A stretch of 42,172 bases of DNA from a virus. Positions 5,558-39,038 of this stretch are shown one piece after another. The first letter of the stretch is position 1. Each line of letters begins with the position of its first letter. The DNA lies in IMG/VR virus record IMGVR_UViG_3300042868_001307, positions 1 through 42,172 of that record, one strand, 5' to 3'. The notes beneath the pieces are model-generated. The model worked only from the letters and a program-made list of their open reading frames with translations, did not search any database and was not told the DNA's origin. The position numbers and the translations under genes are program-made.

Positions 5558-6394
5558 ATGGATAAAACATATCATTTTCTAGCAGGACTACCACGAAGCG
5601 GTAACACACTTCTATCTTCAATACTTAATCAAAACCCAAATATTTATAGTAGTCCACTAAGTCCAGTTCCTGAGTTAATATGGAACTATAAAGGTTCATA
5701 TTATACTGAAGCAATAAATCGCAATAAAGACAATAAAATTAAAGCCGATATATTTTTATCTTCTTTTATAGATAACTTTTACAAAGATGTAAAGAAACCA
5801 ATAGTAATTGATAGAGAAAAAGCGTGGGGTACTCCTGCTAACTTGGCTTTAATAAAAGAATACATAACACCAACTCCTAAAATTATATTTACGGTACGTG
5901 ATATATTAGACATTCTTGCTTCTTTTGTTAAGATGGATGCTAATTATTTAAAAACAAATACTGCAAACAGTGGAAGTTTTCATCTTAACTATCGTTCAGA
6001 AAAAGACTCTGTAGTGGAACATTTAATGTCAGACTATGGAGATATAGACAAGGCTTTACTTTCTTTATCCTCTGCTTTTTTGCCAGAAAATAAAGGTGTG
6101 TTCCACATTGTGGAGTATAACGATTTAGTTCTTAAGCCAGAAGAAACAATGTCTGGTATCTACAAATTCTTAGAGTTACCTGAGTATGAGCATAACTTTA
6201 AGAAGATTGAAAAAGTAGAAGTAGATGATGATGAGTCAATGGGATTGCCAAAAAATCTACACGATGTAAGAAAAAGTATATCTAATTCTACAACAAGTAC
6301 AGACATATTATCAGATTACATAAAGCACAAGTATTCTAATATGGAGTTCTGGCGCAAAGATTCTTTAATGAAAGTTAAAGGAAAAGATTTTTAA
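5558..6394 (+). CDS. Sulfotransferase family protein
   Basis: It encodes 278 aa. It would transfer sulfate from PAPS to an acceptor that is not identifiable here. The 5'-phosphosulfate loop is GLPRSGNTLLSS (residues 10-21), and the 3'-phosphate motif includes R114 and S122 in VRDILDILAS. The length fits the single-domain family. No signal peptide is seen. The gene is more AT-rich (Ile/Asn/Lys-heavy, AAT/AAA codons) than the Gly/Thr-rich genes around it. It has its own leaderless-type promoter and terminator and lacks an SD, so it looks like a horizontally acquired moron. It might modify host surface glycans or virion components; that is inference. Confidence 0.85.
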   Translation: MDKTYHFLAGLPRSGNTLLSSILNQNPNIYSSPLSPVPELIWNYKGSYYTEAINRNKDNKIKADIFLSSFIDNFYKDVKKPIVIDREKAWGTPANLALIKEYITPTPKIIFTVRDILDILASFVKMDANYLKTNTANSGSFHLNYRSEKDSVVEHLMSDYGDIDKALLSLSSAFLPENKGVFHIVEYNDLVLKPEETMSGIYKFLELPEYEHNFKKIEKVEVDDDESMGLPKNLHDVRKSISNSTTSTDILSDYIKHKYSNMEFWRKDSLMKVKGKDF

Positions 6395-16883: not shown

Positions 16884-17267
16884 TTGAAAGAACAAGAGTT
16901 ATTTGACTGGCTTAAGTCAGAACATTACTCGGATTTAGAGCACTCCCCCAATGAGTTTGATGCCTTTGATTGCACAACACACGAACATAAGATGTTCATT
17001 GAACTTAAATCACGCAAGACTCACTACCCATCCCTGCTTATAGAGAAAATAAAGTTTGACTTCTTGCTTGAGCAAGCACGCTTGCTACAATATGAACCAT
17101 ATTATATTAACTACACACCAGAAGGTGTCTTCTCTTTCCATCTTCACGCCATTGGAGAGATAGACTGGCAAGATAAATGGTTACCAATTACTACTGAGTT
17201 TGCTAATAAGAATAATAAGATGAAGATGGTTGGCTTTATTCCTATTGAAGTTGGGGTTAAACTCTGA
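16884..17267 (+). CDS. PD-(D/E)XK nuclease-like protein
   Basis: This 127-aa protein starts at TTG directly after the previous stop. D26/D29 (EFDAFDC), E40-L-K42 (MFIELKSRKTHYPS) and the following helix (LLIEKIKFDFLLEQAR) fit the PD-(D/E)XK core. The KTHYP-type extension after ELK is seen in phage nuclease-like proteins. The C-terminal half is beta-rich. It is coupled to the sigma-like gene. Its role (DNA processing, host DNA degradation or repair) is open. Confidence 0.65.
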   Translation: MKEQELFDWLKSEHYSDLEHSPNEFDAFDCTTHEHKMFIELKSRKTHYPSLLIEKIKFDFLLEQARLLQYEPYYINYTPEGVFSFHLHAIGEIDWQDKWLPITTEFANKNNKMKMVGFIPIEVGVKL

Positions 17268-17908
17268 TGGAATGGGAACGCATACAACGCTGGGAATATA
17301 TAGTTGATGCTGTTGCTTCTGAGTATCACAGGAAGTTTAACATTGACGCTGAGGATATACGCCAAATATTATTTCAATGGTTTGTTGAGCACCCAAATAA
17401 GTTAGATACTTGGGAGGCTATCGGTGAGAAGGATGCGAAGAACTTAATCTATCGTAGCCTACGCAATCAAGCATTAGATTATTGTCAGGCTTGGAAGGCT
17501 AAGTCTGGTGGGTATGAGACATCCGATTTGTTTTATTATGAAGGCGATATGGTTGAGGCTTTGTTGCCCTCTGTAATCAGAGGTGAAATGAGTATCACTC
17601 AGAAGTTAAACCTTGCTGGTGGTGGCAGACCCTCTGCTCCCTCTGAAGGTGGCAACCTTATGGCTATGATGATTGAGATTGATGCTGGCTATTGGAAGTT
17701 ACCTAAAGATGACAGGAAGTTATTATTCCTACGCTATGCAGAGACAATGGACTTCGGTGACATCGCAAGTGAAATGGAATTAGGTTCAGAAGATACTGCA
17801 CGTATGAGACACAAGCGTGCAATACGCAAATTAATCAATAAAATAGGGGGTTTTAAGCCCTATCGTGATGAAGACTTTGAGAGTAATAACCAAGAAGAAG
17901 ACAAATAA
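17267..17908 (+). CDS. Sigma-70-like transcription factor
   Basis: This 213-aa protein has an N-terminal helical domain (residues 5-80; IDAEDIRQILFQWF, then NLIYRSLRNQALDYCQ) like sigma region 2. A flexible Gly/Ser linker (115-135) follows. The C-terminal domain (145-190) is region-4-like: LPKDDRKLLFLRYAETMDFGDIA with a helix-turn-helix and RMRHKRAIRKL as the recognition end. It is the last gene of the replication unit, so it could direct RNA polymerase to late phage promoters. It is divergent, and an HTH regulator that is not a sigma is possible. Confidence 0.65.
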   Translation: MEWERIQRWEYIVDAVASEYHRKFNIDAEDIRQILFQWFVEHPNKLDTWEAIGEKDAKNLIYRSLRNQALDYCQAWKAKSGGYETSDLFYYEGDMVEALLPSVIRGEMSITQKLNLAGGGRPSAPSEGGNLMAMMIEIDAGYWKLPKDDRKLLFLRYAETMDFGDIASEMELGSEDTARMRHKRAIRKLINKIGGFKPYRDEDFESNNQEEDK

Positions 17909-23061: not shown

Positions 23062-24930
23062 ATGGGACGTAAACCAGGGATACAAAACATACCAAAGGGC
23101 GAAGCCCAAGAGAAAGTTCTTATCCAATTAGGTCAAGGTTCAACCATTACTGCTGCTATGGCATCTGTTGGACGTAACGATGTGACCTTCCGTCAGTGGT
23201 CAATGAACGACCCTGACTTCAAGGCTAGAGCAGATAAGGCTCGCCTGGCGGGTAAGGGAGTTATCGCTGACCTAGGCGACTTAAAGCAAATCTCCTACCC
23301 TGACTTCTCTCAGCAGTTCCTAGATACGACCCTGTTTCCACACCAACTCAACTGGTTGGATTTAATTGAAGGCAACGCCCCTAGGTGGCAGCCTCCAGGT
23401 ATGACCTACGAGCCAGGTGACCCAAAGCGTGTCCTAATCAACGTACCACCTGAACACGCTAAGTCCACTACTATTACAACCAACTATGTCCTCTACAACA
23501 TAGTCACCAACCCTAACTCCAGAGTCATCATTGTCTCTAAGACGCAAGGTATGGCTAGAAAATTTTTAGGTGCGATTAAGACTCGTCTTAGCCACCCCGC
23601 CTATATCAAACTCCAAACTGCGTTTGGTCCAAATGGCGGATACAAGGCTGATGCTACTCAATGGTCGGCAGATATGATTTATCTAGGTACAGGCCGCGAC
23701 TCTGGCGAGAAAGACCCTACGGTTCAAGCCCTGGGATTTGGTTCACAAATCTACGGAGCACGTGCCGACCTGATTGTCCTAGACGATGTTGTGATGAACT
23801 CAAATGCCCACGAGTGGGAGAAGCAACTTGAATGGCTTCAGAAGGAAGTTATCACACGTCTGGGGCGGCACGGAAAACTGCTTATAGTTGGAACCCGTGT
23901 CGCTTCCATTGACCTTTATAAAATGATACGAGATGGCGGACAATGGACTGGGGGCAAGACTCCCTTTACCTACTGCGCTATGCCAGCCGTATTAGAGTTT
24001 GATGAGAACCCTGAGAATTGGAAGACGCTGTGGTCTCGTACCAATATCCAGGAAAATGATATTGATGAAATGGGCGACGATGGACTTTATCCGAAATGGG
24101 ATGGACCCTCTTTATTTAAGAGACGCTCTGAAGTTGCACCATCTGTCTGGGCTATGGTCTACCAGCAAGAAGACGTCGTTGAGAACTCAATCTTCTCACC
24201 AACCTGTGTCGCAGGTTCCGTCAACGGAATGCGAAAACGGGGACCACTAAAACCAGGAGTACCTGGTCACCCTAAGCACGCAGAGTCCACCTATACGGTA
24301 ATCGGACTTGACCCTGCTATGGCTGGTGCCACAGGCGCGGTAGTAGCAACTTACAATCGCGCTGATGGCAAAATATATGTTTTAGATTGCGTCAATATGA
24401 CTGACCCAACTCCTTCCAAGATTTCAAATCTTATTGAAGAGTGGGTACCGAAATACAAGCCACAAGAACTACGTATTGAAATTAACGCCCATCAGAAGGC
24501 TTACGCCTTAGATGATGATTTAAGAAACTATCTAGCATCCTACGGATGTCAACTCAACTCACACTTTACTGGTAAGAACAAGTGGGATGTGGGATTCGGT
24601 GTTGCGTCAATGGCTTCGCTATTTGGCAATACCCGTGATGGTAGATTCCAAGATAACAACATTATTGAACTACCAAGCAATGAAGGTTCTGAAGGTCTTA
24701 AGACTTTAGTACAAGAACTCATTACCTGGAAACCAGATACTAAAAACCCTACAGACTGCGTTATGGCTTTATGGTTTGCGATTATTCGTATTCGTGAACT
24801 TATGCAAACATCTTCACGAGTAGGGCAATACCAACAAAACCGCTGGGCTACTAGAGCGCAGAAGGCAAGCAGAGGTTCACTAAACTTAGATGAAGCCTTT
24901 GCTGAACAATGGTCAGAAACTTACGGATAG
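23062..24930 (+). CDS. terL: Terminase large subunit
   Basis: This 622-aa DNA-packaging motor has an atypical Walker A, NVPPEHAKSTT (127-137), Walker B LIVLDDVV (237-244), a coupling-motif region near LLIVGTRV (273-280), and nuclease-domain D417 in VIGLDPAMAG plus the late acidic DCVMALW. Residues 15-65 look like a helix-turn-helix (ITAAMASVGRNDVTFRQW) normally found in small terminases. No separate TerS gene is seen, so DNA recognition may be fused here. The ATG follows AAGGGG. Confidence 0.92.
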   Translation: MGRKPGIQNIPKGEAQEKVLIQLGQGSTITAAMASVGRNDVTFRQWSMNDPDFKARADKARLAGKGVIADLGDLKQISYPDFSQQFLDTTLFPHQLNWLDLIEGNAPRWQPPGMTYEPGDPKRVLINVPPEHAKSTTITTNYVLYNIVTNPNSRVIIVSKTQGMARKFLGAIKTRLSHPAYIKLQTAFGPNGGYKADATQWSADMIYLGTGRDSGEKDPTVQALGFGSQIYGARADLIVLDDVVMNSNAHEWEKQLEWLQKEVITRLGRHGKLLIVGTRVASIDLYKMIRDGGQWTGGKTPFTYCAMPAVLEFDENPENWKTLWSRTNIQENDIDEMGDDGLYPKWDGPSLFKRRSEVAPSVWAMVYQQEDVVENSIFSPTCVAGSVNGMRKRGPLKPGVPGHPKHAESTYTVIGLDPAMAGATGAVVATYNRADGKIYVLDCVNMTDPTPSKISNLIEEWVPKYKPQELRIEINAHQKAYALDDDLRNYLASYGCQLNSHFTGKNKWDVGFGVASMASLFGNTRDGRFQDNNIIELPSNEGSEGLKTLVQELITWKPDTKNPTDCVMALWFAIIRIRELMQTSSRVGQYQQNRWATRAQKASRGSLNLDEAFAEQWSETYG

Positions 24931-24937
24931 GAACCCA

Positions 24938-26713
24938 ATGGCATTAACAATGGACCAGATTGCAGCACGAGTTCAATCTCTGCGCTATCGCAACAGCGAA
25001 CGTGATGCTCGCAACCTTGACGTCCTTGCAGTACGCAAGGGAAAGATTGCTGAAGTCTATCCAAACTTTTTCCCAGATGGCGTAGATGCCAACGTAGTAG
25101 CAAACTTTATTGACATTGTTGCCCGTGACTTATCTGAAGTTATGGCTCCACTGCCAGCAGTAAACTGCTCTGCAGCCAATGCCGTCAATGACCGTGCACG
25201 TTCTTTCGCTGACAAGCGCACACGTATTGCTTCAAACTACTTCCAGCACTCAGACCTTGCAGTACAGATGTACTCAGGTGCAGACTGGTACATAACATAT
25301 GGTTTCGTCCCTTTCATTATTGAATTAGACGAAGAAACAAAAATGCCGCGTATCCGCATAGAAAATCCGATTGGGGCTTACCCAGAGTTTGACCGCTATG
25401 GACGCTGTGTGGCATTTGCTAAAAGATATATGATGACCCTTGGTGAATTGGTTTCACAATTTCCTGAGTATGAGCGAGAACTGTTTGGTGCCCAAGGCTT
25501 CAAGCAGGACTTGAACGCTCAGATTGAATTGATTCGCTATTACGACAAAGACCAGTCAATCATTTATTTACCAACAAAAGACAACCTAATCCTATCTATC
25601 GCCAAAAATCCTCTTGGTAAGATGATGGTAGTTGTCGCACGTAAACCATCTGTTGATGGTGAACTACGTGGACAGTTTGACGATGTACTAGGAATCCAAC
25701 TTCTTCGCAACCGCTTTGCGTTGCTAGCAATGGAAGCAGCAGAGAAATCTGTACAGGCTCCTATTGTTCTTCCACAAGATGTTCAGGAACTCCAACTTGG
25801 TGGAGATGCGGTTATCCGTACAGCCAACCCAGCAGGTGTTCGCCGTGTAGAACTTTCTCTACCACAGGGTGCATTCCAAGAACAGGCACAACTTAATCAA
25901 GAACTTCGTGTAGGCACACGTTATCCTGAAGGACGTACAGGAAACATTGATGCATCTATCGTCACTGGACAAGGCGTACAGGCTCTTATGGGAGCCTTTG
26001 ATACACAGGTTAAATCTGCACAAGCAATCTTTGCTGCAGCACTTCGTGATGTTATTAGCATCTGCTTTGAAGTTGATGAAAGTATTTATCCAGAAGAAAA
26101 GACAATTCGTGGAGTAGATTCAGGTTCACCTTATGAAATTACATACAAGCCGACTAAAGACATCAAGGGTGACTATTCTGCTGATGTTCGTTACGGTATG
26201 TTGGCTGGTCTTAACCCAGCCCAAGGTCTTATCTTTATGCTACAAGCACTTGGCGGAGGATTAATCTCCAAGGATATGGCAATGCGTGAACTACCATTCA
26301 CAGTAAATGTCACACAAGAACTTGAGAAAATTGAAATTGAAAATATGCGCCAAGCATTACTTGGTGGAATTACAGCAATGGCTCAGGCTATTCCTGCGAT
26401 GGCGACACAGGGACAAGACCCATCAGATATGGTTAACAAGATTGCTGCGGTAATCAAGGCTCGTCAAAAGGGTGTCTCACTAGAAGATGCTATTGAAACG
26501 ACCTTCGCGCCACAGCAGCAAGTTCCTCCTGCTGGGGCAGCACCTATGGTTGAGCAACCGTCCCCTGCTCCCACCGCTTCTCCAGCAGGAGGCGCTCCTT
26601 CTCCAGAGGGCGTCGCTTTACCAGCACCAGAGCAAGCACCAGATATTCAAACAATTCTTTCAAGCCTTACCGCATCAGGTAAAGCAGGAGGACGAGTAGT
26701 CACAAGAGGCTAA
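24938..26713 (+). CDS. Portal protein
   Basis: It encodes 591 aa. The start MALTMDQIAARV is 7 nt after the TerL stop; an upstream in-frame ATG lies within terL and is rejected. The helical N-terminus, central beta region (MPRIRIENPIGAYPEFDRYG), LLRNRFALLAMEAAEKSVQAPIV wing-stem transition and long C-terminal helices fit SPP1-gp6-like portals. The C-terminus is Pro/Ala/Gln-rich and disordered. It would form the dodecameric DNA gate. Assignment rests on position, size and pattern. Confidence 0.85.
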   Translation: MALTMDQIAARVQSLRYRNSERDARNLDVLAVRKGKIAEVYPNFFPDGVDANVVANFIDIVARDLSEVMAPLPAVNCSAANAVNDRARSFADKRTRIASNYFQHSDLAVQMYSGADWYITYGFVPFIIELDEETKMPRIRIENPIGAYPEFDRYGRCVAFAKRYMMTLGELVSQFPEYERELFGAQGFKQDLNAQIELIRYYDKDQSIIYLPTKDNLILSIAKNPLGKMMVVVARKPSVDGELRGQFDDVLGIQLLRNRFALLAMEAAEKSVQAPIVLPQDVQELQLGGDAVIRTANPAGVRRVELSLPQGAFQEQAQLNQELRVGTRYPEGRTGNIDASIVTGQGVQALMGAFDTQVKSAQAIFAAALRDVISICFEVDESIYPEEKTIRGVDSGSPYEITYKPTKDIKGDYSADVRYGMLAGLNPAQGLIFMLQALGGGLISKDMAMRELPFTVNVTQELEKIEIENMRQALLGGITAMAQAIPAMATQGQDPSDMVNKIAAVIKARQKGVSLEDAIETTFAPQQQVPPAGAAPMVEQPSPAPTASPAGGAPSPEGVALPAPEQAPDIQTILSSLTASGKAGGRVVTRG

Positions 26714-26727
26714 TCAAGAAGGGGACA

Positions 26728-27270
26728 ATGACAACGATTATAGGGCTTGAATATAAAGACAGCGCAGTAATTGTTGCTGATAGCCAGACTACAGATGAGA
26801 GTGGAAGAATTTATTCTCATCCAGATATTAAAAAAATTGCCGAACGTGGTTCGTTTCTAGTTGCTGGCTCAGGTGAGGTTCTACCTTGCGATATAGCCCA
26901 ACACATATGGGAGCCACCTGCAGTAACTAAGTCTGATTATAAAGACTTGTATCACTTTATGATTGCTAAGGCTATGCCATCTCTACGCAAATGCTTATCA
27001 GAGAATGGTTACAACTTTGATGAAGACAATAAAGAAATGCGTTTTCAGTTTATCATTGCAGTCGGTGGAGAAATATTTGATGTAGACCAAGAGTGTTCAG
27101 TATCTAAAACTGACACAGGAGTTTACGCCGCAGGTTCAGGTGCAGCATATGCACTTGGTGCATTACACGCTGGAGCAGATGCTTACGAAGCAATGGAGAT
27201 TGCAAGTAAACTTACAGCCTTTACAGCAAAACCTTATTATTCAAAAACACAACCTAAACATATTAAGTAG
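26728..27270 (+). CDS. Proteasome-beta/HslV-like Ntn hydrolase
   Basis: It encodes 180 aa. After Met removal the chain starts TTIIGLEYKDSAVIVADSQT: nucleophile Thr1, Asp17 at the canonical position, and Lys34/35 near the expected Lys33. Later YAAGSGAAYALGALHAGADAYEA matches the GSG-x-A-xGAL-A turn and helix of proteasome beta subunits and HslV. There is no propeptide, as in HslV. No AAA partner is encoded. Located between portal and scaffold/capsid, it may be the maturation protease, or it may act on host proteins. Confidence 0.8.
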   Translation: MTTIIGLEYKDSAVIVADSQTTDESGRIYSHPDIKKIAERGSFLVAGSGEVLPCDIAQHIWEPPAVTKSDYKDLYHFMIAKAMPSLRKCLSENGYNFDEDNKEMRFQFIIAVGGEIFDVDQECSVSKTDTGVYAAGSGAAYALGALHAGADAYEAMEIASKLTAFTAKPYYSKTQPKHIK

Positions 27271-27278
27271 GAGGAACA

Positions 27279-27710
27279 ATGGCTGAGAATCGTGGGGGCT
27301 TTCGCCCAACAGCACCACAGAATAATCCAGCAAATGTTTCCGCAATGGGTGGAGCAGGACAAGCAGGAACTACACAACCTGCTCGTTACATTGCAGGGAT
27401 GCAATATGGTGAGGGACAAGAATTAATGACTCAGCAACAGAGTGCACCTATGGCTGGACCAAGCCAAATAGCATCATCACCTACTCCACTTGGTGCATCA
27501 ATGCCATCAGTAACACCTTTAACTGCTCCTACAGAGCGCCCTGACGAACCATTAACTGCTGGTATGGATTTTGGTGCAGGACCAGGAAGTGAGGCACTTA
27601 ACCTTCCTCGTGACCGTTCTCTTTCAGAAATTCTCGCTTCAATGATTGACATAGACCCAACTGGAGATGTACAGGAACTTTACGACTACGTGGCATCCAG
27701 AGGTCTTTAA
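27279..27710 (+). CDS. Disordered Pro/Gln/Gly-rich virion protein
   Basis: This 143-aa protein has a strong TAGGAGG SD. Residues 1-105 are Pro/Gln/Ala/Gly-rich and low complexity (APQNNPANVSAMGGAGQAG). Residues 110-143 form a helical, acidic end (SLSEILASMIDIDPTGDVQELYDYV). It is coupled to the giant virion gene (TAATG). It could be a head-assembly or cargo protein; unrecognised. Confidence 0.6.
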   Translation: MAENRGGFRPTAPQNNPANVSAMGGAGQAGTTQPARYIAGMQYGEGQELMTQQQSAPMAGPSQIASSPTPLGASMPSVTPLTAPTERPDEPLTAGMDFGAGPGSEALNLPRDRSLSEILASMIDIDPTGDVQELYDYVASRGL

Positions 27711-35130: not shown

Positions 35131-35249
35131 ACAAATAGAATCCTGAGCGGACCCACCAGCCCCGCCAGCGTAACAGACTGGTAGCAAGAGCCAGACCGAT
35201 TCCCCGATTGGAACCTGAGGCTTGCGAACTAACTAATAGAGAAGGGTGG

Positions 35250-35738
35250 ATGGTTGCTATGAGCAACAACTACTGGGATGAAGACGAAGACGACCTAGAT
35301 ACTGATGTATCTGAAACACAGATGGATGGCAGTGACCTTGTAAAGAAGTTACGAAAAGCCAAACGTAATGACGAGAAACGTATCAAAGAACTTACTGAGC
35401 AACTTGAGGGTTTAACCAAGTCGCAGCGTGAGCGTACCGTCAAAGAAGTCCTAGACAAGAAAGGTGTAAATCCTAAAGCACAACGCTTAATCCTGAAAGA
35501 CTTAGACGAAGTTACCGAAGAGTCAGTGAATAACTGGCTTGAAGATAATGGAGACTTATTCGGATTAACTGTGAATCAGGACGCACCTGCAGTAAGTGAT
35601 ACAGACCGTGCAGCATTGCGCCAGCAAGACTCTATCACGCAAGGTGCAATAACACCTGACAGAGCAGAGAACCTAGAACAGAGACTCAACAGTGCAGATT
35701 CTGCAGAAGAGATTCTTTCTATTCTTCGCTCACAATAA
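35250..35738 (+). CDS. Scaffolding protein
   Basis: It encodes 162 aa from ATG at 35250; ATG at 35259 (MSNNYWDED) is an alternative. An acidic N-terminus (DEDEDDLDTD) is followed by a long coiled coil (VKKLRKAKRNDEKRIKELTEQLEGL) and a helical C-terminus ending SAEEILSILRSQ. The acidic, coiled-coil layout directly before the capsid gene is characteristic of phage scaffolds. The preceding 119-nt gap (35131-35249) holds only a weak CTGG/CCAG hairpin. Confidence 0.75.
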   Translation: MVAMSNNYWDEDEDDLDTDVSETQMDGSDLVKKLRKAKRNDEKRIKELTEQLEGLTKSQRERTVKEVLDKKGVNPKAQRLILKDLDEVTEESVNNWLEDNGDLFGLTVNQDAPAVSDTDRAALRQQDSITQGAITPDRAENLEQRLNSADSAEEILSILRSQ

Positions 35739-35778: not shown

Positions 35779-36732
35779 ATGTCTAACGCATACGTATCAA
35801 CAGGTTCGTCGTCTCTCGGCGGTACCGCTGGTGGTGCTGGTTTAGTACAGAAGGCTTATGACCGTCTCTTGGAGTTCGCACTCCGTTCAGAGCCACTCAT
35901 TCGCTCAGTTGCTGACAAGCGCCCAACAAATCAATCAATCCCAGGTTCAACAGTTGTTCTACAACGCTACGTTGACTTGGCTGCTGCAACAACAGCATTA
36001 ACAGAAGATACAGACCCAGATGCAGTAGCAATGTCTACACCAACATCTGTGACAATCACACTAAACGAGTACGGTAACTCAGTACTTGTAACACGTGCAT
36101 TGGAACTCTTCTCACTTGCAGATGTTGACCCAGCAATTGCTAACATTATCGCATTCAACCTTGCAGATTCAATTGACGCCGTAGCAATGACAACATTGCG
36201 TGGCGGTTCAAACGTAATCTACTCAGGTTCAACTGCAACATCTACAGCAACAATCACTGCTGCTGCAACCATTTCGTCTGCAAACATCCGTCGCGCAGTT
36301 GCAAAACTTCGTGCGAATAAGACAACAGCACGCAAGGGTTCACTATACTGGGCTGGAATCCACCCAGAAGTTTCACACGACCTACGCGCTGAGACAGGTT
36401 CAGCAGGATGGTTGCTTCCAAACCAGTACGGTTCAGCACAGGACCGAATCTGGGCAGGAGAAATCGGAACATACGAAGGTGCATACTTCGTAGAGTCTCC
36501 ACGTCTATACAACGCAACAGATGGTTCATCATCTGCTCGCGTTTACCGCACAATCCTTGCAGGACAGCAAGCGTTGGCTGAGGCAGTTGCCGAAGAGCCA
36601 CACGTAGTTATCGGACCAGTAGTTGACAAGTTAATGCGTCACCGCCCAATGGGTTGGTACGGCGTACTAGGCTTTGCTCGCTACCGCGAAGAGGCACTAT
36701 TCCGCATTGAATCAGGTTCATCAATCGCTTAA
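35779..36732 (+). CDS. Major capsid protein, N4-gp56-like HK97 fold
   Basis: In this 317-aa protein the N-terminus (VQKAYDRLLEFALRSEPLIR, then PGSTVVLQRYVDL) and the TPTSVTITLNEYGNSVLVTR segment match the N4 gp56 family. HPEVSHDLRAE and a C-terminal GWYGVLGFARYREEALFRIE are also typical. The coding sequence uses a restricted, even codon set, unlike the fibre genes, suggesting strong translation. A hairpin and a new SD follow. Confidence 0.88.
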   Translation: MSNAYVSTGSSSLGGTAGGAGLVQKAYDRLLEFALRSEPLIRSVADKRPTNQSIPGSTVVLQRYVDLAAATTALTEDTDPDAVAMSTPTSVTITLNEYGNSVLVTRALELFSLADVDPAIANIIAFNLADSIDAVAMTTLRGGSNVIYSGSTATSTATITAAATISSANIRRAVAKLRANKTTARKGSLYWAGIHPEVSHDLRAETGSAGWLLPNQYGSAQDRIWAGEIGTYEGAYFVESPRLYNATDGSSSARVYRTILAGQQALAEAVAEEPHVVIGPVVDKLMRHRPMGWYGVLGFARYREEALFRIESGSSIA

Positions 36733-38357: not shown

Positions 38358-39038
38358 ATGCAAGAGACAGTATCGGTTGCTTGGTGCGATAACGGTATGG
38401 TAGATGGAAAGTTTATGCAAGGCGTAACCGATGTGTTACTTAAGTCTGGCATTAAATTTGAATCTACTCTACGCAGTCAAGGCAATCAAATTGCTAGACA
38501 GAGGGAAACTGTAATTACCTACTGGTATGAGCAGAACAAAGCAGACTGGCTACTATGGGTTGACTCAGATGTAGTTATCAGCCCAGAGGGTTTCTTGAAA
38601 CTTTGGAATCAAAAGGATAAAGACGAACGACCAATTATGACTGGCGTTTACTTTACTACTGATAATCCAGAAGAGCCTCTGATGATTCCAATGCCTACAG
38701 TGTTTAACTTTACTGAGAACAAAGATGGTGGCTTTGGACTATCTAGGGTTCACCCACTACCTGATAATAAGTTAATCAAGGTAGATGCTGCAGGTATGGG
38801 ATATGTCCTTATGCACCGCAGCGTGGTTGACCGTATTAGAAAAGAAATGCCCGATGCTCAGTTCTTTATGGAGATGGGCAGAGGAACTAAATTTATAGGT
38901 GAGGATATTTACTTTTTTGCTCTATGCGAAAAGGCTGGTATTCCACTCTACTGCGACACAAGTGTCTTGGCGCCGCATATGAAACGCTTCTCATTTGATG
39001 AGCATTATTACAGAGCAATGACTAAAGGGAGAAAATAA
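38358..39038 (+). CDS. GT-A fold glycosyltransferase-like protein
   Basis: This 226-aa protein has the metal-binding DSD in WLLWVDSDVVISPEGF (about 69-84), preceded by NQIARQRETVITYWYEQ, a typical GT2-like nucleotide-sugar region. GMGYVLMHRSVVDRI and FIGEDIYFFALCEKAGIPLY supply the acceptor-site ED motif. It has no membrane segment. Located among virion genes, it may glycosylate capsid or fibre proteins, or host glycans. Confidence 0.75.
   Translation: MQETVSVAWCDNGMVDGKFMQGVTDVLLKSGIKFESTLRSQGNQIARQRETVITYWYEQNKADWLLWVDSDVVISPEGFLKLWNQKDKDERPIMTGVYFTTDNPEEPLMIPMPTVFNFTENKDGGFGLSRVHPLPDNKLIKVDAAGMGYVLMHRSVVDRIRKEMPDAQFFMEMGRGTKFIGEDIYFFALCEKAGIPLYCDTSVLAPHMKRFSFDEHYYRAMTKGRK

Follow-up and report, generated by a model that had tools for sequence, protein, structure and literature searches.

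We identified a gene for an Ntn (proteasome/HslV/BPH-like) threonine peptidase directly after the portal gene of an uncultured podovirus-like phage whose lineage is related to the Beephvirinae. The protein encoded in the window, by which we mean the whole stretch of 42,172 nucleotides analysed here, belongs to a new and abundant branch of phage-borne proteasome homologues that occupies an unusual place in the genome. We consider it probable that this protein, hereafter the window Ntn, is a catalytically competent threonine peptidase related to HslV and to BPH (beta-proteobacterial proteasome homologue), carried as exchangeable accessory cargo, which would act on host proteins or on surplus phage proteins. 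The initial annotation had proposed a protease for capsid maturation, a role that sequence comparison with relatives lacking the gene makes unlikely.

The open reading frame (ORF) lies exactly where the initial annotation had placed it, and has a Shine-Dalgarno sequence that was rated good on inspection (Table 1). The protein starts Met-Thr-Thr (opening sequence MTTIIGLEYKDSAVIVADSQ); since the threonine is residue 2, it would become residue 1 after removal of the Met. The other active-site features that had been read from the sequence were also confirmed by residue counts in 49 diverged representatives of the family. The Asp at mature position 17 is Asp18 of the ORF, the Lys expected near position 33 is Lys36 (mature position 35, with a two-residue insertion before it), and the GSG turn is formed by residues 136–138. 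The column corresponding to Gly47 of the oxyanion hole, where the donor is the backbone NH, has Gly in the window protein and in 33 of the 49 representatives, with Val or Ala in the others. Comparison of the window gene with its relatives gave dN/dS values of 0.06–0.15 (nine pairs), indicating purifying selection; because of these values, we regard the window Ntn as a conserved and probably active enzyme.

Structure prediction followed by a search against proteasome and HslV structures, which the initial annotation had suggested as a check, yielded the alpha-beta-beta-alpha Ntn fold. The AlphaFold2 model, for which the input was 26 sequences from the window and IMG/VR, had a pLDDT of 93.4 and a pTM of 0.89. 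The top Foldseek match was BPH (1.9e-11, TM 0.70–0.75), and HslV and 20S beta subunits came next, the matches to the three kinds spanning E values from 1e-11 to 1e-8; 40 viral structures were also matched, several of them already named HslV, proteasome or Ntn. At the sequence level, the window Ntn matched Pfam PF00227 (Proteasome) with 25.3 bits against a cut-off of 22.4, and PHROG 1040 ('peptidase HslV family') with an E value of 4.5e-28 over residues 1–170. When a profile of the family was run against PDB sequences, it matched BPH (1.5e-9) and placed Thr2 opposite residue 1 of that protein; models of archaeal proteasome beta subunits and HslV matched weakly. Together with the conserved triad, these results, which lie well outside what chance would give, bear out the proposed Ntn fold and active site, and we conclude that both are genuine and have been kept intact.

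A phage threonine protease is not novel as such. Phage-borne group-I proteasome homologues, named PPH, AAH and CPH, have been described (Fuchs, Alva and Lupas, 2021; PMC8665760), and RefSeq labels such phage genes 'peptidase HslV family'. These proteins and PHROG 1040 share with the window Ntn the fold, the Thr/Asp/Lys triad, the lack of a propeptide, a phage-borne gene and the lack of a dedicated unfoldase. However, PPH has ~140 amino acids and no helix H2 (PMC8665760), whereas the window Ntn has 180 amino acids, both H1 and H2 are present in its model (helices 51–60 and 74–92), and its gene lies inside a structural operon. Size and helix content therefore exclude PPH; the window Ntn may belong to AAH, to CPH or to a new group. 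BPH, the best structural and profile match (5ovs, 5ovu), is 22–23% identical to the window Ntn but is a cellular protein. HslV has the same fold, Thr1/Asp17/Lys33 residues and GSG turn, but NCBIfam HslV models gave 19–20 bits, far under their cut-offs of 137–158, which places the window protein outside HslV proper, and no match to an HslU/ClpX-like partner was found among the window ORFs scanned.

We next consider the genomic neighbourhood. The gene order in the window is terminase, portal, Ntn, g143, a giant protein, a 297-aa protein, a LysM protein, scaffold and major capsid protein (MCP). The initial annotation had placed the gene between portal and scaffold/capsid, and it does lie between them; it is not, however, adjacent to scaffold or capsid, with the 143-aa, 1778-aa, 297-aa and LysM ORFs intervening. 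The scaffold matched PHROG 648 (0.0012) and, weakly by HMM, its Streptomyces phage counterparts; its positional counterpart in Streptomyces phage Dennebes carries the annotation scaffolding protein. The window also encodes, where the early region ends, a sigma-factor-like protein (17267–17908) that is a possible late-gene regulator, as well as a sulfotransferase-family protein (5558–6394) and a glycosyltransferase-like protein (38358–39038).

Table 1. Coordinates of the Ntn gene, its active-site codons and neighbouring genes in the window.
Feature	Position	Strand	Evidence or remark
Terminase large subunit	23062..24930	+	PHROG 38, 3.7e-66
Portal protein, 5' border of exchangeable slot	24890..26713	+	PHROG 104, 9.2e-31
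Shine-Dalgarno of Ntn gene, AAGAAGGGG	26716..26724	+	Sequence; relatives have similar GGGGACA
Ntn (proteasome/HslV/BPH-like) threonine peptidase gene, 180 aa	26728..27270	+	Pfam, PHROG, AlphaFold2, Foldseek, PDB-sequence profile
Thr2 codon, catalytic Thr1 once Met is removed	26731..26733	+	Invariant, 49/49
Asp18 codon, Asp17 of proteasome triad	26779..26781	+	Asp in 47, Glu in 2 of 49
Lys36 codon, Lys33 of proteasome triad	26833..26835	+	Invariant, 49/49
GSG turn, residues 136–138, Ser129-like position	27133..27141	+	Both Gly 49/49; Ser/Thr/Cys between
g143 (143 aa), 3' border of slot; Beephvirinae gp07 homologue	27279..27710	+	HMM 1e-16 to 1e-20, five Streptomyces phages
Giant protein, 1778 aa	27710..33046	+	No Pfam or PHROG match; virion role suggested by position
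Scaffold protein	35250..35738	+	Probable start at 35250 (ORF opens at 35208); acidic, coiled-coil-like, before MCP
Major capsid protein, 317 aa, without N-terminal delta domain	35779..36732	+	PF13252 1.6e-12, PHROG 1357 1.4e-81

The nearest isolates are Streptomyces podoviruses of the Beephvirinae, with MCPs ~55% and terminases ~45% identical to those of the window. FlowerPower, Manuel, Immanuel3, Dennebes and Abafar share with the window the order terminase-portal-g143-giant, followed further downstream by scaffold and MCP. Unlike the window, these phages have two or three small ORFs between portal and g143 and lack an Ntn gene; no Ntn match was found in the Streptomyces Beephvirinae relatives even at an E value of 10 without filters. 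Judging from the isolated relatives only, the hosts of the window phage are probably Actinobacteria. We found no cellular or prophage relatives in the GTDB genome contigs scanned.

Loci gathered by the Ntn gene itself are a biased sample, in which all have the Ntn gene after portal and, where the contig is long enough, before g143. Loci gathered by portal are a fairer sample, with most comparisons made on metagenomic fragments. In this second sample, Ntn follows portal in 52 loci and is absent from 22, and three loci are too short to call. The 22 loci without Ntn comprise 12 Streptomyces-like loci (all the testable ones) and 10 close relatives of the window phage; locus L077, which had scored as lacking Ntn because of a broken portal ORF, was excluded. 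Of the 62 close relatives, 52 have an Ntn gene, which belongs to one or another of several diverged types, whereas in the remaining 10 its place is taken by one unrelated ORF of ~75 (74–86) amino acids. The portals of these 10 reach 94% identity to portals of phages with Ntn. For 11 phages lacking Ntn, the gene is absent throughout the available record, several of these records being fragments. In a portal tree made by a quick search, presence or absence of Ntn requires seven changes, six of which are forced by supported branches, and Ntn type requires 20 changes. Pairwise comparisons show the same exchange: DNA identity between loci L135 and L045 is 70–91% up to the portal stop codon, ~33–55% between portal and g143, and mostly 67–88% from the g143 start; similarly, terminase, portal and MCP of ct2KA10 are 83%, 86% and ~80% identical to those of the window, but Ntn just 39%. 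We conclude from these alignments and trees that portal and g143 flank a slot whose content is exchangeable.

Two small ORFs are associated with the slot. The ORF that replaces Ntn, which we call partB (L108:10763–10996 and other loci lacking Ntn), is conserved; its N-terminus is basic, its C-terminus is acidic and DEEDE-like, and it had no family match. A second ORF, partA (75–88 aa, with the motif 'SEWADYEG'; L107:4870–5097, L122:4679–4933 and 21 other loci), either overlaps the Ntn gene at its 3' end or directly adjoins it there. The 23 loci that have partA represent three Ntn types, and partA was never seen without Ntn; it is possibly a partner of Ntn. PartA had no family match, and its model was of low confidence (pLDDT 61). 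Alignments A4 and A1 were too varied for pattern searches.

If Ntn matured the capsid, phages lacking it would be expected to have a different capsid or scaffold, or a substitute. By contrast, relatives without Ntn have the same scaffold and MCP N-terminus. Relatives whose portals are >90% identical to those of Ntn-bearing phages have in the slot the unrelated 75-aa ORF, which is likely too small for a protease. The MCP of one phage lacking Ntn (locus L167, with its MCP in L238) has 314 amino acids, is 75.5% identical to the window MCP and has the same N-terminus; the MCP of an Ntn-bearing phage (L025) is 72.6% identical. A long cleavable N-terminal domain, such as a delta domain, is not visible in any MCP compared, and neither MCP nor scaffold showed such a domain tracking the protease. 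Ntn is thus neither required by nor conserved with the head module, being absent from 10 of 62 close relatives and from all testable Streptomyces relatives, whose MCPs are 55% identical; for one of the latter, Abafar, podovirus particles have been observed (PMC11536984). Homologues elsewhere also lie outside head modules. Position after portal in the structural operon and active-site conservation are in keeping with a prohead protease that cuts scaffold and/or capsid N-termini in place of the usual serine protease, as is the finding that Pfam and PHROG scans of the window revealed no other protease between portal and MCP. Nevertheless, given the relatives described above, we consider this role very unlikely. 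Prohead proteases of the HK97, T4 and lambda types are serine proteases that have other folds and go together with a capsid or scaffold that is cleaved. Their likeness to the window Ntn is limited to a rough position near portal, whereas the window protein has an Ntn fold, is dispensable and is accompanied by no visible cleavage domain. Our search of the open-licence literature found no paper giving an Ntn or HslV-like protease a role in phage capsid maturation. No sequence relative of the window MCP was found in the PDB. Separately, we observed in some relatives MCPs of 388–400 amino acids with an extra insert of ~75 residues near the C-terminus (L082:17567–18766, L237, L239 and L240) that is absent from the 317-aa window MCP.

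Because the position of Ntn in the structural operon is constant, an optional role in the virion keeps some probability. The enzyme might be packaged or ejected with the DNA, or might trim g143 or the giant protein, while being optional for infectivity; its constant place among portal, g143 and giant protein, its strong conservation and the co-linear structural genes fit such a role. On the other hand, Ntn and the giant protein are exchanged independently: one locus (L001) has an Ntn 99% identical to that of the window and a giant protein of 1721 amino acids without a BLAST match, and L009/L010 have Ntn at 94% and giant protein at 42% identity. We therefore rejected co-evolution of the two proteins, and judge a virion-associated protease to be unlikely. 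We also observed that the giant protein is swapped even among phages whose portal and MCP are ~98% identical. It is distinctly unlikely that, in the phages that carry it, Ntn has taken on an optional step in the virion in which, packaged or in the prohead, it trims a portal- or ejection-linked protein or, like the related connectase, ligates one; if so, it would be the first proteasome-type enzyme working on virus particles.

The Ntn subfamily is also found outside the slot, in unrelated large contigs of up to 136 kb. In one of these (L200) the gene lies 1.9 kb upstream of terminase; in another (L207), genes for exonuclease and tRNA-guanine transglycosylase lie nearby. In isolated phages, homologues adjoin thymidylate synthase and RNase H in AAS21 and phiR2-01, lie near thymidine kinase in Vibrio 3.058.O and beside WhiB in DSL-LC01, and are found within small-gene arrays in Hum25 and D'Alembert, the latter with a head maturation protease annotated separately. 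In VpV262, ORFE, which adjoins terminase, was rejected as a homologue; the true homologue is ORF47, outside the block of terminase and structural genes. Slot and non-slot genes interleave in the Ntn tree (four changes, two of them forced). The Pantoea homologue was matched by 171 phage records, and carriers include phages of Salmonella, Escherichia and Vibrio.

Many actinobacteria possess a 20S proteasome, and the initial annotation had offered interference with the host proteasome as an alternative. A role as decoy or inhibitor, in which the protein would join the host 20S proteasome as a subunit or compete with it, would fit the beta-subunit fold, the Streptomyces hosts of the closest isolated relatives, and the rise of host proteasome genes during infection of Rhodococcus by phage WC1 (PMC10986025). 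However, in fold and sequence the protein stands closer to BPH and HslV, the model of bacterial 20S beta subunits (TIGR03690) giving an E value of only 0.014, and the intact triad argues for catalysis. Moreover, homologues occur in the phages of Salmonella, Escherichia and Vibrio mentioned above, hosts that are not known for a 20S proteasome. We consider a decoy highly improbable.

Exchangeable cargo acting on cell proteins is the most likely explanation because close relatives with the same capsid lack Ntn. Under our preferred explanation, removal of Met would expose Thr1, with no propeptide to be processed, and the subunits would probably form, as in BPH, a small ring that is self-compartmentalised. 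The ring would work without a phage-encoded unfoldase, and late in infection would degrade unfolded or specific host proteins, or surplus phage proteins. Set against an accessory role is the constant location of Ntn directly after portal, inside the structural operon, in most members of the lineage; an early gene directed purely at the host would hardly be expected there, which leaves room for a virion-related role.

Overall, our analysis corrects a tempting prohead-protease call, and the phage-borne proteasome homologues gain a branch that is large and well conserved. Fuchs et al. found no genomic context hinting at the function of such proteins (PMC8665760), whereas the slot between portal and g143 is a clear, recurrent context. 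Matched sister phages with and without Ntn provide a natural comparison by which the role of such homologues in phages becomes testable.
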